This document shows, one piece after another, positions 8,464 through 59,662 of a DNA stretch of 64,000 nucleotides. The notes beneath the pieces are model-generated. The model saw nothing but the letters and a program-made list of their open reading frames with translations, did no database searches and was not told the origin of the DNA. The position numbers and the translations under genes were made by a program. The stretch lies in assembly GCA_020073485.1 (NCBI GenBank), contig JAIQFB010000023.1, positions 1 to 64,000 on the forward strand, given 5' to 3'. Positions within the stretch are counted from its first letter, which is position 1. Every line of letters begins with the position of its first letter. Source of the stretch: Terriglobia bacterium (GTDB lineage: Bacteria; Acidobacteriota; Terriglobia; Acidiferrales; UBA7541).

Positions 8464-8546
8464 GCGGGTGAGGAGTCTGTATTTGCTTTGGCTCCAAAAC
8501 CAGGAGGGATTCCTCACCCGCAGGAGCGGGTTCGGAATGACGACGG
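8464..8546. repeat. Hairpin repeat (family C, GGATTCCTC type)
   Basis: The arms GCGGGTGAGGA (8464-8474) and TCCTCACCCGC (8511-8521) are followed by AGGAGCGGGTTCGGAATGACG. The second half is almost identical over about 40 bases to 21406-21447. Confidence 0.7.
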
Positions 8547-10633: not shown

Positions 10634-10824
10634 TCAGCGGCTAAAGCCGCACTCACTGCAATGCTTTAATGCCATGGCTGAAGCCACGACCCACAAAAAT
10701 CCAAATTTTGCCGCGCCGGCGCGAATGACTTCGTTAAAGAATCCGGCATTCGCATTTGTAGCGGCCGCCTTCGAGCGGGCACGCGCTCAAGTTAAGAGTG
10801 TCCGCCTGAGGGCGGACGCTACAA
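10634..10824. repeat. Two intergenic hairpin elements
   Basis: The first holds GCGGCT-AA-AGCCGC (10637-10650) and TGGCTGAAGCCA (10675-10686). The second is bounded by TTGTAGCG (10756-10763) and CGCTACAA (10817-10824) and contains GTCCGCC-TGAG-GGCGGAC (10800-10817). They fill the space between the DUF420 gene and the small membrane-protein gene. Confidence 0.65.
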
Positions 10825-17219: not shown

Positions 17220-17394
17220 CCCAGGTCTCCTTTTCTTTCCAGCGGGCTGCCCTTCGTACCTCAGGGCAAACAAGTACAGCCCGCACGTGCTCTACTTGAA
17301 TCCGCATCGACTGCCGCATCAAAGAACGGTATTCGAGAAACTCTAAAAGCGCATCCTTCGCGACATCCCTCTTGCACTTTCGCTACAAATCGAA

Positions 17395-17424
17395 GAGGGA
17401 TTCCTCGCTTCGCTCGGAATGACG
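17395..17424. repeat. Family C repeat, half copy
   Basis: GAGGGATTCCTCGCTTCGCT followed by CGGAATGACG, the same motif as in the copies near 52.3 and 52.8 kb. It lies in the 226-bp gap between the cytochrome b C-half and the octahaem gene. Confidence 0.65.
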
Positions 17425-17445
17425 GGCGAAAACAAAATACTAAAA

Positions 17446-25503: not shown

Positions 25504-25560
25504 CAGCGGCTAAAGCCGCAACTATTTCGGTGCGTTTATGTCGTGGCTGAAGCCACGACC
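25504..25560. repeat. Hairpin pair GCGGCTAAAGCCGC / CGTGGCTGAAGCCACG
   Basis: The same pairing of a 'ggctaaagcc' hairpin with a 'ggctgaagcc' hairpin recurs at 10634-10695, 30336-30400 and 35720-35783, always between genes. Confidence 0.65.
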
Positions 25561-25575
25561 CACAAAGATTGGTAC

Positions 25576-30335: not shown

Positions 30336-30400
30336 CCAGCGGCTAAAGCCGGTTCGAGTTTGCGTATCTTCCGGCACGGCCGAAGCCGTGCCCTACAACG
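30336..30400. repeat. Hairpin pair of the GGCTAAAGCC / GGCACGGC type
   Basis: CAGCGGCTAAAGCCGG (about 30338-30352) and GGCACGGC-CGAA-GCCGTGCC (30373-30392). Confidence 0.65.
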
Positions 30401-30489
30401 ATTTACGAATTCTCGGATTTGTGGGCTCTTGGAATTGCGGGCTCTTGCGCTGACGCGATGGAGCGCGTGCGGCGGAAGTTCGGCGGCGC

Positions 30490-32032: not shown

Positions 32033-32108
32033 GTGGCACAGGCTGCAGCCTGTGCGGTGTGTGATTTTCAATAGATCGAAAAAATGCACAGGCTGAAGCC
32101 TGTGCCAC
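32033..32108. repeat. Family B inverted-repeat element, copy 1
   Basis: GTGGCACAGGCT (32033-32044) and AGCCTGTGCCAC (32097-32108) form 12-bp outer inverted repeats. Each arm is also palindromic with a GCAGCC or TGAAGCC centre. It lies between dnaE and accA. Confidence 0.75.
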
Positions 32109-32129
32109 CAAAGCCGCCCGAAAAACGCA

Positions 32130-41856: not shown

Positions 41857-41860
41857 GGTT

Positions 41861-41936
41861 GGTGGCACAGGCTTCAGCCTGTGCGTCTTCTGGGCGGATG
41901 AGAATTAAAACCGCACAGGCTGAAGCCTGTGCCACC
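41861..41936. repeat. Family B inverted-repeat element, copy 2
   Basis: Perfect 25-bp inverted repeats: 41861-41885 begins GGTGGCACAGGCTTCAGCC and 41912-41936 is its exact complement, with a 26-base spacer. Each arm has its own AGGCTTCAGCCT palindrome. It lies between the convergent ends of lpxD and plsC. Confidence 0.8.
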
Positions 41937-41944
41937 ACGAAACA

Positions 41945-50962: not shown

Positions 50963-52150
50963 TTACTTCGCGTCCAGGATCTGACGGGCGATGACCATGC
51001 GTTGGATTTCGCTGGTGCCTTCGCCGATGGTGCAGAGCTTGGAGTCGCGATAGAACTTTTCGACGGGGTAATCCTTGACGAAACCGTAGCCGCCGAAAAT
51101 TTGCACGGCTTCGTTGGCTACGCGCACTCCTACCTCGCTGGCGTAGAGTTTAGCCATGCTGGATTCCTTGGTGAAGCGCGGGCCTTTCTGGTCGGCGAGC
51201 CAGGCGGCGCGGTAGACCAGCCAGCGGGCAGCGTCGATTTCGGTGGCCATGTCGGCCAGCTTGAATTGAATGGCTTGGAATTCGCTGATGGTCTTGCCGA
51301 ATTGTTTTCGCTGTTTGGCGTATTTTGTGGCCGCTTCGTAAGCGCCTTGCGCCATGCCCAAGGCCAGTGCGGCAATCGAGATGCGTCCGCCGTCAAGGAC
51401 CTGCAGCGTGTTCACGAATCCGCGGCCTTCGGCGCCCAGAAGATTTGCTTCCGGGACCAGGCAATCACTGAAGACGACTTCGGAGGTATCGCTGGCGCGC
51501 ATGCCCAGCTTGTTTTCTTTTTTTCCGGGGCGAAATCCCGGATTCCCTTTTTCCAAAATAAATGCGGAGATTCCTTTTGCGCCCTTGGCTTTGTCGGTCA
51601 CGGCCATGGCCACGCAGACGTCGGCATAGTGGCCGTTGGTGGTGAAAGTTTTCGCGCCGTTCAGGATCCAGCCGCTGTCCTTGCGCACGGCCACGGTACG
51701 CGTACCTCCGGCGTCCGAGCCTGCGCCGGGTTCGGTCAGGGACCAGCATCCGAGTTTCTTGCCCTGCGCTAAGGGCACGACGTATTTTTTGCGCTGGTCT
51801 TCGTTGCCGAACTTATAGATGTGATTTGTGCACAGCGAGTTGTGGGCCGCGACGATCAGGCCGATAGAGCCGTCGACGCGAGCCAATTCTTCGATCACGC
51901 CGGCGTATTCGATGTAGCCGAGGCCGGCGCCGCCGTATTCCTCTGGGAAAATCACGCCGAGCAGGCCCATTTCGCCGAGTTTGGGGATCAGTTCGGAGGG
52001 AAAATGCGATGCTTCATCCCATTCCATGACATGCGGGAGGATTTCGGACTCGGCGAATTCGCGGACGGTGCGGCGGAGGTGCTGTTGTTCGTCGGTGAAG
52101 GAGAAATCCACGGCGCCTCGGGGGAGCGGAGTGTTCCGGTTACGTTCCAT
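50963..52150 (-). CDS. Acyl-CoA dehydrogenase (short/branched-chain type)
   Basis: 395 residues. FAD/substrate signatures [21 protein letters not shown] and [12 protein letters not shown] are near 135-175. The C-terminal motif [41 protein letters not shown] carries the catalytic Glu in GEGTSEIQ, the position used by short-chain/butyryl-CoA dehydrogenases. It forms the 2,3-double bond of acyl-CoA in beta-oxidation or amino-acid catabolism, passing electrons to ETF. The ATG has no ribosome site but is preceded by an AT-rich box (TATAAA three bases upstream). Confidence 0.9.
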
Positions 52151-52244: not shown

Positions 52245-52335
52245 ACCGTCATTCCGGGCCGAGCGAGGAATCCCTCTTGAGTTTTTGCTGGGCGGGAAAG
52301 AAGGAGGGATTCCTCGCTTCGCTCGGAATGACGGT
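52245..52335. repeat. Family C palindromic repeat, full copy left of the GIY-YIG gene
   Basis: ACCGTCATTCCGGGCCGAGC then GAGGAATCCCTCTTGAG...GGCGGGAAAGAAGGAGGGATTCCTCGC and finally TTCGCTCGGAATGACGGT. The outer 12 or so bases are exact inverted repeats. Nearly identical to 52716-52806. Confidence 0.8.
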
Positions 52336-52385
52336 CCAATGGGGTATTTTGCAAGGTTCGTTGTAATGAGCCGTTCGGTACATTT

Positions 52386-52694
52386 TCATTTTTCCAATGG
52401 AGGATCCGGATTTAGCAAGTAGCTTATGTCAACCCAAAGCGGATTAGTCGCTTCGATGAGCGCGATTTTCTTCGCGCGGCTCCAACCTTTTAGCTGCTTT
52501 TCGCGGGCTATGGCGCTGGTGGCTCTGCCGTGAGCCTCGAACCAGACTAATTTGGTCACGTTATATTTCTGCGTGAAGCCTGGGACTTTCCTTGCCTTGT
52601 GCTCACGGGTTCGGCGAAACAAGTCGTTTGTCATTCCCGTGTACAAGACAGCGGATTCGCTTGCGAGGATGTAGACGTGGAAGGTTCTGTCCAT
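52386..52694 (-). CDS. Small GIY-YIG nuclease domain protein
   Basis: 102 residues from the ATG at 52694. A longer frame upstream only reads through the adjacent repeat. The GIY-YIG core is seen as HVYIL (6-10) and LYTG (17-20), with Arg27 (NDLFRRTREHK) and the metal-binding Glu65 (AIAREKQLKGW). The C-terminal WSRAKKIALIEATNPLWVDIS is usual for the stand-alone UvrC-like/UPF0213 group. Function is unproven for this group; nicking of branched or repeated DNA is often assumed. The gene lies exactly between two family C repeats (about 50 bp from the left one, about 20 bp from the right one). No ribosome site is seen. Confidence 0.82.
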   Translation of the reverse strand: MDRTFHVYILASESAVLYTGMTNDLFRRTREHKARKVPGFTQKYNVTKLVWFEAHGRATSAIAREKQLKGWSRAKKIALIEATNPLWVDISYLLNPDPPLEK

Positions 52695-52715
52695 AGAGGG
52701 TTGCGCCACTCTACC

Positions 52716-52806
52716 ACCGTCATTCCGAGCGGAGCGAGGAATCCCTCTTGGGTTTTTGCTGCGCGGGAAAGAAGGAGGGATTCCTCGCTTCGCTCGGAAT
52801 GACGGT
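52716..52806. repeat. Family C palindromic repeat, full copy right of the GIY-YIG gene
   Basis: ACCGTCATTCCGAGCGGAGC ... GAGGAATCCCTCTTGGG ... GCGCGGGAAAGAAGGAGGGATTCC ... GCTCGGAATGACGGT. Its two ends are a perfect inverted repeat. It differs from the left copy at only a few positions. Confidence 0.8.
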
Positions 52807-52865
52807 TTTGTGGTGGGTGCTTGAAAGTAGGTTCCGATAGCGCACCGGAGGGGTTTGGTAGCACG

Positions 52866-52955
52866 GGCACTCTTGAGCGTGGGATTTTGTGGGGTACACG
52901 CGCGCCACTGATCCATGTGCGCCGGCAAAAACCGGACAGGCAAGAGTGCCTGTCC
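52866..52955. repeat. Inverted repeat with GGCACTCTTG arms
   Basis: GGCACTCTTG (52866-52875) and CAAGAGTGCC (52941-52950); the right arm is part of a second hairpin GGACAGGCA-AGAG-TGCCTGTCC (52934-52955). It ends just before the M2 peptidase stop codon. Confidence 0.6.
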
Positions 52956-52958
52956 TAC

Positions 52959-54842
52959 TTAATTCCAGCCGACTTTGTGGCCGGCGTTTTGTTCGTCGAG
53001 CCACTTTTTTAGGGGGGCGAAGTAGTCGAGCATGGCGGTGGCGTCCATCTGGCGCTGGCCGGTGAGGGCTTCGAGGGCGTCGGGCCAGGGGTGGCTCTGG
53101 CCCAGGGCCAGCATTTTCGCGAATTTTGCTCCGGCAGCCTTGTTGCCGTAGATCGAGCAGCGATTGAGGGGGCCGGTGTAGCCGGCTTCCTTGCACAAGG
53201 CGCGATGAAATTGGAATTGCAGGATGGTGGCCAGGAAATAGCGGGAGTAGGGGACGTTGGCGGCAACGTGAAATTTCGCGCCGGGATCGAAATCGGCTTC
53301 GCTGCGGGCGACGGGCGGAGCGACACCCTGATATTTCCGGCGCAGCTCCCACCAAGTTTTGTTGTAGTCGGCGGGCTTGATTTCGCCGGAAAAGACTTTC
53401 CAGCGCCACTGATCGACCAGCAATCCAAATGGCAGGAAGGCCACTTTGTCGAGCGCGCGGTCGAGAAGGATGCCGATGTCGGCCGAGGCGGGCGGCACGG
53501 AATCGATCAGGCCAATATGTTTGAGGTACTCGGGTGTGACCGAGAGGGCGATTGTGTCGCCGATGGCTTCGTGGAAGCCGTCGTTGGCGCCGCTCTGAAA
53601 CAAGGGAGGGAGCGTGTTGTAGGCGCGCTGGTAAAAATTGTGGCCCAGTTCGTGGTGGACCGTTGTGAAATCCTCCGCGGTTTGATCGAGGCAGAGTTTT
53701 ACGCGCAGGTCGTCCTTAAAATCGAGGCTCCAGGCGCTGGCGTGGCAGACGACGTCGCGGTCGCGGGGTTTCGTAAACAGCGAGCGGTCCCAGAACGTCG
53801 AGGGCAGCGGATCGAAGCCGAGCGAGATGAAAAATCCTTCGCCATAATGGACCATGCCGCGCGCGTCGATTTTTTTGGCGCGCAGAGCTGCGGAAACATC
53901 CGGGCTGGATGCGGCGTCGGCGGGAGCGAGCAGCGGGTAAATGTTGTTCCATTCCTGCGACCACATGTTGCCGAGCAGGTGCGCGGGGATCGGCTGGTCT
54001 TCGCCGACGACGTCCTTGCCGTATTTTTCCGCGAGCCTCCAGCGAACGTAGGCGTGCAAGGAGACGTAGAGCGGGCGGACTTGCAGCCAGAGGCGGTCCA
54101 TTTCTTTCGCGAAATCATCGGGCGGCATGTCGTAGTTCGAGCGCCACATCGCGCCCACGTCGGCAAAGCCCACTTCCTGCGCGCCTTTGTTCGCCAGTTG
54201 CACCATGCGCGTGTAGCGCTGCCGCATGGGAGGAGCGATCGCATGCCAGCCTTCCCAGGCGCTCAGCAGTTCCTTGGGATCGCGGCTGGTGGCCAGAATT
54301 TTTTCGATGTCCGGCAACTGCTTGCAGTTTTCTTTTTTGTCGTCGGGACACCAGGTTCCCTTGCCGTAGTCGGAGGGAAGCGAAGCGTCGATTTTGGCAA
54401 GCTCGGCCTGCTCAGCGGGATCGCGCGGCGAAGGAATGTCCACCGACAATTTCAGGAGTTTGAATTTGCGGGCCACGTCGGGAGGGAGCGAGAGTTTCTG
54501 GTATCGCTTGGCTTCGGTGGCTAGCTCGGACGTGGCGGCTTTGACGGCCTGATCGGCGTCGGCGGAGATGCCTTCGGTATCTTCGGTGATGAAGTTTGCG
54601 GCGACCCAGGAGGCGCGGGCGCTCTTGATCCACAGATCGAGCAAGCGCGATTCCGCGCGGGTGATGAAGCGTTCAGCCTCGGCCACAGTGGGCGCGGCGG
54701 TTGCGGATTTTGGCGCGGGAGCCGGCTTTGGCTTTGCCGGCGATTGTGCCCGCGCCACGGGACTCAACAAAATAATTGAGGCGACAATCGGCCCAATTAA
54801 ATATTTGAAAGGAAGACTCGCATCGGATCTGATTGCGGCCAT
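52959..54842 (-). CDS. M2-family peptidyl-dipeptidase (ACE-like)
   Basis: 627 residues from the ATG at 54842 with GAGAGG upstream. A signal peptide (to about 32) is followed by a Pro/Lys/Ala linker and the M2 peptidase domain. Zn site: HHELGHNFY (His397, His401, Glu398 as base) and GANDGFHEAIGDTIALS (Glu425 as third ligand). Bacterial M2 enzymes remove C-terminal dipeptides in the periplasm. Length is close to the single-domain ACE core. It follows hemW by 16 bp, so it is probably in the same operon, although the functions look unrelated. Confidence 0.9.
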   Translation of the reverse strand: MAAIRSDASLPFKYLIGPIVASIILLSPVARAQSPAKPKPAPAPKSATAAPTVAEAERFITRAESRLLDLWIKSARASWVAANFITEDTEGISADADQAVKAATSELATEAKRYQKLSLPPDVARKFKLLKLSVDIPSPRDPAEQAELAKIDASLPSDYGKGTWCPDDKKENCKQLPDIEKILATSRDPKELLSAWEGWHAIAPPMRQRYTRMVQLANKGAQEVGFADVGAMWRSNYDMPPDDFAKEMDRLWLQVRPLYVSLHAYVRWRLAEKYGKDVVGEDQPIPAHLLGNMWSQEWNNIYPLLAPADAASSPDVSAALRAKKIDARGMVHYGEGFFISLGFDPLPSTFWDRSLFTKPRDRDVVCHASAWSLDFKDDLRVKLCLDQTAEDFTTVHHELGHNFYQRAYNTLPPLFQSGANDGFHEAIGDTIALSVTPEYLKHIGLIDSVPPASADIGILLDRALDKVAFLPFGLLVDQWRWKVFSGEIKPADYNKTWWELRRKYQGVAPPVARSEADFDPGAKFHVAANVPYSRYFLATILQFQFHRALCKEAGYTGPLNRCSIYGNKAAGAKFAKMLALGQSHPWPDALEALTGQRQMDATAMLDYFAPLKKWLDEQNAGHKVGWN

Positions 54843-57211: not shown

Positions 57212-57759
57212 CCCGCTATCCTCCGGTTGTAGGCTGAAAAATAAAATCTTCCTGAGGGGCATAGTACCACGCCAAAACAAGGGGGCAATTCCCTGTTCGA
57301 GTTTGTGCGCGAAAAACACAATTACAGTTTGATGTCATTGGATAGATTTATCTGGTTTTGCCCGCTTGGATCGATCGCAGGCCATGCAATTGCGCCATCG
57401 GCGCGGAGGATCCCTGTGCCCTTTCAGGGTGCAACACAAATGATGGACTCCCATACCTGGGGCGTTGCCCCAGGCTGGTCACCGCCGGCGCTTTCAGCGC
57501 CGGGAGACAGCGAAATGGCAGAGGCTACGGGGGGATGGTTTTGAGAATGGAAATTTGAGATTTGAAATCAAGCTATCTCATGAATGGCCAGTCGGCAAAC
57601 TATGTAGGCTGTCAGGGGCTAGAGTTCAGTTTTTCTCCGTGTTTTGATGTCGCGGCTGAAGCCGCAACCCACAAGACATTTTTATGAGCTGGCTTGATTA
57701 CAGATTTGATATTTCAAATTGAGATTTGAAATTTGAGATTTGACACGGGAGATTTGAGA
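57212..57759. other. Intergenic region rich in small palindromes and GATTTGA iterations
   Basis: Holds CCTGGGGC-GTT-GCCCCAGG (57456-57474), CCGGCGCT-TTC-AGCGCCGG (57485-57503), a GCGGCTGAAGCCGC hairpin near 57650-57663 and repeated AGATTTGA units at 57551-57568 and 57701-57766. No gene is recognised in the 548 bp. Confidence 0.55.
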
Positions 57760-59585: not shown

Positions 59586-59660
59586 GGTGGCACAGGCTTC
59601 AGCCTGTGCGGATTGGATCCTGGTGTTCGGAAAAGCGCACAGACTGAAGCCTGTGCCACC
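59586..59660. repeat. Family B inverted-repeat element, copy 3
   Basis: 59586-59610 begins GGTGGCACAGGCTTCAGCC, identical to the left arm of the copy at 41861. The right arm (59636-59660) is its complement with one mismatch. The spacer is unrelated to that of copy 2. It lies between carB and bshC. Confidence 0.8.
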
Positions 59661-59662
59661 AT

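Follow-up and report, generated by a model that had tools for sequence, protein, structure and literature searches.

The analysis of a GIY-YIG endonuclease gene and of the palindromic repeats on either side of it identified a specific pairing of one gene subfamily with one hairpin repeat, and this pairing is not a product of chance. The gene lies in the window, by which is meant the whole stretch of 64,000 nucleotides that was analysed, part of contig C24 of a Terriglobia assembly of 5.05 Mb in 46 contigs. The real unit of the repeat is a hairpin of approximately 26 nt, CGTC-AT-NNN-GAGCGNAGCGA-N'N'N'-AT-C, and the 91-mer that brackets the gene is two such units placed head to head. The explanation that is favoured here, and that is considered reasonably likely, is that of an Ssn-like nuclease with its cognate hairpins, which would together form a mobile cassette.

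The nuclease gene and its flanking doublets

The gene occupies positions 52386-52694 on the minus strand and has 102 codons. PF01541 is the only Pfam match in the 102 residues, at 51 bits against a cut-off of 22.6, and there is no second domain, so the preliminary description was right to call this a GIY-YIG gene. The domain, the conserved site residues and the fold match all place the protein in the GIY-YIG superfamily. In an AlphaFold2 model with a pLDDT of 91.8 the nearest solved structures are UPF0213 protein BH0048, Slx1 and the N-domain of UvrC, with only BH0048 below an E value of 0.001, and by sequence BH0048 is likewise the only PDB entry below 0.001. No NCBIfam family was matched at 0.001, and the best named relative comes from a Terriglobia MAG. 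An alignment of 32 rows contains 15 invariant columns, including Y18, G20, R28, H32 and E65, all of which are kept in the window protein. Given that the site residues are among these columns (Y18, R28, H32 and E65, which we take to be the catalytic Tyr, Arg, His and Glu of the GIY-YIG site), the nuclease is probably active.

The other three GIY-YIG genes of the genome were considered as members of the subfamily and rejected. Two of them, small genes on other contigs (L001:1430-1805 and L004:1415-1638), stand beside tRNA-Ile and tRNA-Arg, with gaps of 18 and 9 bp between match and tRNA, and have no unit by eye; the third, L003, lies in an open frame of 628 residues, whose length is the sole ground for reading it as UvrC. 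Part of the tRNA end recurs beyond the gene at L001, which by eye looks like the trace of an insertion of the gene.

As had been claimed, the gene is bracketed by two 91-bp doublets, which are 96% identical and have their spacer in common. The first (52245-52335) lies 50 bp 3' of the stop codon and the second (52716-52806) lies 21 bp 5' of the start codon. Unit 1, CGTC-ATTCC-GGGCCGAGCGA-GGAAT-C (52247-52272, plus strand), is the most degenerate of the four arms, with 2 mismatches to the core, and the others match the core exactly: unit 2, CGTC-ATTCC-GAGCGAAGCGA-GGAAT-C (52308-52333, minus strand), unit 3, CGTC-ATTCC-GAGCGGAGCGA-GGAAT-C (52718-52743, plus strand), and unit 4, which again reads CGTC-ATTCC-GAGCGAAGCGA-GGAAT-C (52779-52804, minus strand). 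The cassette of doublet, gene and doublet (52245-52806) has as its neighbours an acyl-CoA-dehydrogenase-like gene (50963-52150) and a peptidase-like gene (52959-54842), names that were read from the translations and not from a database.

The terminal inverted repeats of the doublets had been called perfect; the complementarity of the arms over 32 nt is in fact 91% in the first copy and 97% in the second, and the outermost 12 nt are perfect in both. Nor are these the freshest copies of the family, as was first supposed. Ranking of the 40 genome copies read by their mismatches to the family consensus placed the second copy 11th, in a tie for ranks 7-11, and the first 24th, in a tie for ranks 19-24, which rules out that the flanking doublets are the youngest; six other copies match the consensus exactly, and 10 of the 40 have perfectly self-complementary arms. 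The two window doublets are each other's closest relatives, the next best copy being 87-88% identical.

At least 40 places in the genome match the 91-mer, a number that is a floor since only 40 of 142 candidate places were scored (38 were fetched besides the two of the window). Doublets measure 75-92 bp where complete, and two inverted units are present in 38 of the 40 copies, L162 and L165 matching only part of the left arm; doublets are favoured in this set because the copies were found with a doublet query. The strict single-unit pattern has 39 + 30 matches in the genome and the reversed control pattern has none. Within the window, a core pattern of 23 nt, allowed up to 3 mismatches, matches five times, against none in 100 shuffles; four of the matches are the arms of the two doublets and the fifth is at 17399, where a further, partly degenerate copy of the family runs from 17366 to 17425 on the minus strand. 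Partial or diverged copies near 8464, 17395, 21406, 46950 and 50891 are present, as had been described. The predicted DNA fold of the whole doublet is far better than that of shuffles (z = -10.6).

Further repeats are found in the window. To the right of the cassette, in the same intergenic stretch (52858-52958), there is a diverged inverted pair, GTAGCACGGGCACTCTTG ... CAAGAGTGCCTGTCCTAC, which looks GTAG-tagged and which has a better version at the same place in the congener G090. The palindromic family GCACAGGCTGAAGCCTGTGCCACC occupies five places in both orientations (32076-32111, 41859-41937 and 59586-59661), and similar palindromes, GGCTTCAGCC, adjoin the dehydrogenase gene in G088 and G089. 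A partly palindromic family of 66 nt, CAGCGGCTAAAGCCGC...GGCTGAAGCCACGACCCACAA, lies at 10635-10700, 25504-25569, 30337-30402 and 57613-57678.

The hairpin unit and its covariation

Written out, the unit reads CGTC-AT-NNN-GA-GC-GNA-GC-GA-N'N'N'-AT-C with the CGTC outside, an architecture of 5 bp, G.A/A.G mismatches, 2 bp and a 3-nt loop. Units were gathered by the anchors GTCAT, 17 nt and ATC, and inner pairing was not demanded; as shuffled loci gave approximately 16 anchor matches against the 184 observed, nearly a tenth of the units may be chance. The 80 cross-phylum loci yielded 87 distinct units. Pairing is seen in 68 of them at columns 0-16, in 69 at 1-15 and in 66 at 2-14, where shuffling gave means of 31, 44 and 34, and the first of these stem columns uses T-A, C-G, G-C and A-T. 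The inner column 5-11 pairs in 62 of the 87 (shuffled 33), alternating between G-C and A-T, and columns 3-13 and 4-12 are mostly G.A and A.G (54 and 53 of 87). Little covariation is seen at the innermost pair, 6-10 (52 of 87 against a shuffled 43.6, maximum 51), because it is mostly a constant C-G.

The units of the order behave similarly. In 28 distinct units from 49 order-level loci, with the window's own locus (L091) left out, columns 0-16, 1-15, 2-14 and 5-11 pair in 23, 23, 24 and 22 (shuffles 12, 17, 14 and 14), and pair 6-10 was not seen above shuffles in these 28. The window's own genome has 71 units, 17 of them distinct, in which the stem triple hardly varies, so that only pair 5-11 covaries there (G-C in 58 and A-T in 10 of 71). 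Given that covariation is seen across genomes and that the stem is near-constant within this one, the stem drifts by compensatory change between genomes around a centre, GAGCGNAGCGA, that is largely kept.

The sequence GCGNAGC is a very stable DNA mini-hairpin, and tandem GA/AG mismatches are favourable in DNA. The GCGNAGC centre of the unit and its GA/AG mismatches suggest a DNA hairpin; fold prediction of solo units gives this no support, since ViennaRNA, a program that to our knowledge credits tandem G.A pairs and GNA loops poorly, gave the five units tried no predicted advantage in stability over shuffles (z from -0.6 to 0.1).

Pairing and distribution among genomes

A profile of 32 relatives gave 71 matches in 41 of the 95 genomes of the order: 50 strong (E up to 2.4e-28, with up to three strong copies per genome), 17 weak and four that are partial or interrupted (G061, G082, G080 and G065:C369) and stand outside the flank test. 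A unit-like 11-mer lies within 300 bp of all 50 strong genes (30 of 30 in a first set, the window's own included, and 20 of 20 in a second), and on both sides of 43, as opposed to 1 of the 17 weak GIY-YIG matches and 0 of 30 ribosomal S15 genes of the same order (30 loci from 91 matches). This 11-mer, which generalises the window's own GTCATTCCGAG, was picked after flanks had been read, and the order-level loci and controls were fetched or read after the choice; its letter classes were widened slightly for the order-level and Y1_Tnp counts and again for the loop-agreement counts. Across phyla, it lies within 250 bp in 65 of 80 loci and on both sides in 47, at a density of 6.3 per kb within 100 bp against 0.14-0.19 per kb beyond 1 kb. 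The preliminary description had proposed that nuclease and repeat belong together in the manner of RAYT and REP, and the enrichment (50 of 50 against 0 of 30 in the order, 65 of 80 across phyla) supports this.

The pairing was also seen by structure. A first inverted-repeat scan that was free of sequence gave a weak signal because the stems have mismatches: a score of at least 14 was reached by 29 of 155 flanks and by 4 of 320 controls. A search for GTC with a hairpin of A-T, T-A and three free pairs was used instead. It found such a structure in 61 of the 80 loci, as compared with 11 of 237 placements displaced within these loci and none of 30 S15 loci. By eye, and outside all counts, 14 of the 15 loci without the 11-mer show another GTC-tagged palindrome of similar look. 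Among these loci the tag varies by eye to GTCGTT in L034 and GTCACC in L037, and L060 has, again by eye, a CCGCGG hairpin without tag beside the gene. The gene is flanked by GTC-ATTCCCGCGCAGGCGGGAAT, of type ATTCCC-N8-GGGAAT, in L057 (Gammaproteobacteria), and adjoins a CCGCGG-type palindrome in L042 (Coxiellaceae), ATTGCCCGC in L055 and forms of GTCATTGCG in L032, L039, L059 and L072 (partly by eye); an automatic scan for short hairpins within 260 bp found none in L032, L034, L072 and L080. Given that loci without the 11-mer often hold other palindromes of its class, one gene subfamily goes with one repeat class, the exact sequence of which changes by lineage. Palindromes of the type TGTCAT..GAGCG..AAG..ATC adjoin these genes in Acidobacteria, Cyanobacteria, Chloroflexi, Bacteroidetes and Proteobacteria.

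Agreement of loop type between the two sides of the gene was observed directly, as were the stem covariation and the doublet geometry. The loop base x of GAx is the same on both sides in 35 of 43 order loci, the window's own L091 being left out (shuffled mean 22.6, maximum 31), and in 44 of 53 loci across phyla (shuffled mean 33.8, maximum 42), and the stem triple agrees in 34 of the 53 (shuffled 6.1) and in 23 of the 43 (13.6, maximum 22). The nearest units face inward, as unit, gene and inverted unit, in 27 of the 53 cross-phylum loci and 22 of the 43 order loci, about twice the quarter expected from four equal arrangements, and thus the gene often takes the place of the spacer of a doublet. 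In 6 of the 80 relatives (L020, L022, L034, L035, L048 and L067) the frame reads into the unit and ends in a tail like SLRSE or SLRSG, where the repeat seems to supply the C-terminus.

Comparison with congeners showed that the cassette is present or absent at one site, missing from the window junction in G090, G092 and G088. In G090, the closest congener, whose flanks are 86-87% identical, the matches to the neighbouring genes are approximately 200 bp apart, against approximately 760 in the window, and the corresponding distances are 183 bp in G092 and 94 bp in G088, where the window has approximately 840. G089 and G091 are uninformative on this site because other sequence follows the dehydrogenase gene on the cassette side; G091 has a related gene elsewhere, itself flanked by units on either side. 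The junction would be most simply read as a gain in the window's lineage. No clean target-site duplication was seen at the cassette ends, where the adjoining sequence is too diverged. In Spirosoma the gene keeps the same upstream neighbour end in 4 of 5 loci (by eye), so it can stay in place for long.

Genomes with the gene also hold more of the repeat. At a completeness of at least 90% (a cut on completeness alone, contamination being unfiltered, with G061 and G082 counted as gene-bearing), the median number of strict units is 17.5 with the gene (n=22) and 5 without (n=30; p=0.002, relatedness ignored), and 8 of the 22, as compared with 1 of the 30, hold at least 30 strict units. When all 95 genomes are taken, the medians are 15 with a strong gene (n=35) and 4 without (n=60). 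Among the genomes of at least 90% completeness, the share that has any unit is not significantly different (21 of 22 against 23 of 30, p=0.12). Genomes full of the repeat and lacking the gene, which the preliminary description had held would speak against a link, were found in part: 3 of the 30 gene-less genomes at this completeness hold at least 20 strict units (G058 34, G077 22 and G014 22). G089, of the same genus and 89% complete, has 111 strict units and no subfamily gene, and its units may be a relict population, or the gene may have been missed, or there may be another mobiliser. Conversely, no strict unit was found in three gene-bearing genomes, G042, G038 and G063, although the 11-mer adjoins their genes; the GAA loops of G042 and G038 escape the strict GAG pattern.

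Related systems and rival explanations

It is suggested that this small, probably active GIY-YIG endonuclease has the hairpin unit of approximately 26 nt as its cognate site and that the unit would be presented on single-stranded DNA, in lagging-strand gaps or in incoming DNA. Cleavage by the nuclease would probably fall at the folded unit or next to it, after which repair or strand exchange would place copies of units, at times of the entire cassette, in further intergenic locations. The gene and its flanking units would thereby constitute a small mobile cassette, and the genome doublets, at least 40 in number, would be its gene-less (MITE-like or REPIN-like) relatives. We infer the cleavage, the single-strand substrate and the copying step, and judge it fairly probable that action of the nuclease on the unit, a single-strand substrate and spread hold together.

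A comparable system has reportedly been described in Neisseria, where, according to a 2025 study, the Ssn proteins (site-specific single-strand nucleases) are GIY-YIG nucleases that cut single-stranded DNA at the NTS repeat; Ssn is said to act in transformation there and to have thousands of homologues, each with its own sequence. The statement of the preliminary description that no system pairing a GIY-YIG protein with such repeats had been described is therefore probably wrong; a literature word search, with most subscription journals and preprints outside its scope, found no paper on Ssn and none with any of six written forms of the unit. The likeness to what is reported of Ssn lies in a small GIY-YIG protein with a genome-wide palindromic repeat as partner and in a gene or genome linked to a repeated cognate sequence. 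Here, by contrast, there is the GAGCGNAGCGA centre, a stem that varies between genomes, an arrangement in doublets and a cassette present or absent between congeners, and the partnership may be of the kind reported for Ssn and NTS with a different hairpin family.

The window unit fits the superfamily of CGTC-tagged REPs, as defined in its 2013 survey, and not its four families. There (Di Nocera 2013, PMC3733652) the superfamily is characterised by an unpaired CGTC (or TGTC) beside the palindrome, A-T first stem pairs and mostly head-to-head dimers, with stem and loop subtypes in five phyla, Acidobacteria not among them. Its four families, CGTC-1 to CGTC-4, have stems of 8-9 bp and loops of 4-5 nt, dRS3 of Neisseria belongs to CGTC-1, and the survey gives these REPs no dedicated transposase and no link to Y1 transposases; a word search of this text did not find GIY-YIG. 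Most of the 40 copies in the window's genome read CGTCATTCC...GGAATC, with a few CGCC or CGTCAA variants, head-to-head dimers prevail here too (38 of 40), and the copies found by BLAST read ATTCC...GGAAT, that is, with A-T and T-A as first pairs. Relatives collected by anchor or structure are no independent test of the A-T pairs because AT was imposed in their collection. The window unit, in which two G.A mismatches separate stem segments of 5 and 2 bp and the loop has 3 nt, differs in stem and loop sizes from the four families and is therefore at most a further family. The GTC-ATTCCCGCGCAGGCGGGAAT flank of L057 measures 20 nt and contains an inverted repeat of 6 nt, in keeping with the description of dRS3 in PMC10745880.

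Given that some genomes retain many units and no gene, that the gene stays long at one locus in 4 of 5 Spirosoma loci (by eye) and that Ssn reportedly functions in transformation, it is conceivable that the repeats are not mobilised and that the nuclease is a domesticated modulator. By cutting single-stranded DNA at the units, whether incoming or of the lagging strand, it would tune transformation, recombination or genome stability, and the flanking units would let its own locus spread by homologous recombination. This is unlikely, though not strongly so: presence and absence at one congener junction and up to three strong copies per genome look mobile. A second possibility, that a homing-type GIY-YIG gene has landed in harmless intergenic repeats and has no biochemical link to the unit, draws on the two small GIY-YIG genes 18 and 9 bp from tRNA genes, from which it follows that the superfamily does exploit standard sites. 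It is improbable nonetheless, since residence in these repeats is particular to this subfamily (50 of 50, compared with 1 of 17 weak matches), the units on both sides of the gene have their loop type in common, and elsewhere the same subfamily adjoins other members of the repeat class (the ATTCCC-N8-GGGAAT type in L057 and the CCGCGG type in L042). GIY-YIG homing endonucleases have the same catalytic fold and likewise form selfish-looking cassettes. Unlike them, the cassette shows no intron or intein, has high-copy hairpins as flanks and not a unique target, and its protein has no second Pfam domain.

REPs are held to be mobilised by RAYT/Y1 transposases, and the present repeats resemble the REP/REPIN-RAYT systems in their short palindromes, inverted doublets, repeat-flanked gene and gene-less copies that outnumber the gene; they differ in that the partner is a GIY-YIG nuclease and not an HUH Y1 transposase and the tag is CGTC and not GTAG. 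There are also three Y1_Tnp matches in the window's genome. That such a transposase spreads the repeats, with the GIY-YIG gene as passenger, is nevertheless very improbable: G091, with the gene and 37 strict units, gave no match to Y1_Tnp at 1e-8. Among 30 Y1_Tnp loci of the order, drawn from more than 150 matches, one has the unit-like 11-mer within 400 bp and none has a structured unit, and RAYT as mobiliser is disfavoured by these loci without units. The doublet does form a strong inverted repeat, and the start codon follows one doublet at a distance of 21 bp, as would suit terminators or mRNA stabilisers whose proximity to the gene is incidental or regulatory; such a role at the RNA level leaves the specificity for one gene subfamily across phyla unexplained and is hardly credible.

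The reading of a nuclease with cognate hairpins can be taken further. The neighbourhood of gene and repeat in many phyla suggests that the enzyme is the missing partner of a bacterial palindromic repeat class. It is proposed tentatively, as an idea with modest prospects, that the GIY-YIG subfamily supplies the mobilising enzyme that has been missing for the CGTC-tagged REP superfamily as a whole, dRS3-type repeats included, with unit-gene-unit as the autonomous form and doublets as non-autonomous offspring, and that a single-strand nuclease of approximately 100 residues reads the loop of the mini-hairpin while the stem drifts by compensation. What may be new is the connection of this gene family with the CGTC superfamily. 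Repeats for which the 2013 survey (PMC3733652) has no partner enzyme would gain one candidate, a single small gene family, and a concrete candidate substrate can be named, the hairpin of approximately 26 nt with its GCGNAGC core. If the nuclease drives spread, this would be a transposition route without HUH, DDE or tyrosine/serine recombinase chemistry, and it would explain the TGTCAT..GAGCG..AAG..ATC-type palindromes beside these genes in several phyla.

Relatives of the gene are also carried by 35 IMG/VR contigs (L238-L272), with the 11-mer within 300 bp in 5 of the 35 and a GTC-AT hairpin within this distance in 18, and because of these 18 the subfamily may travel with phages or prophages.
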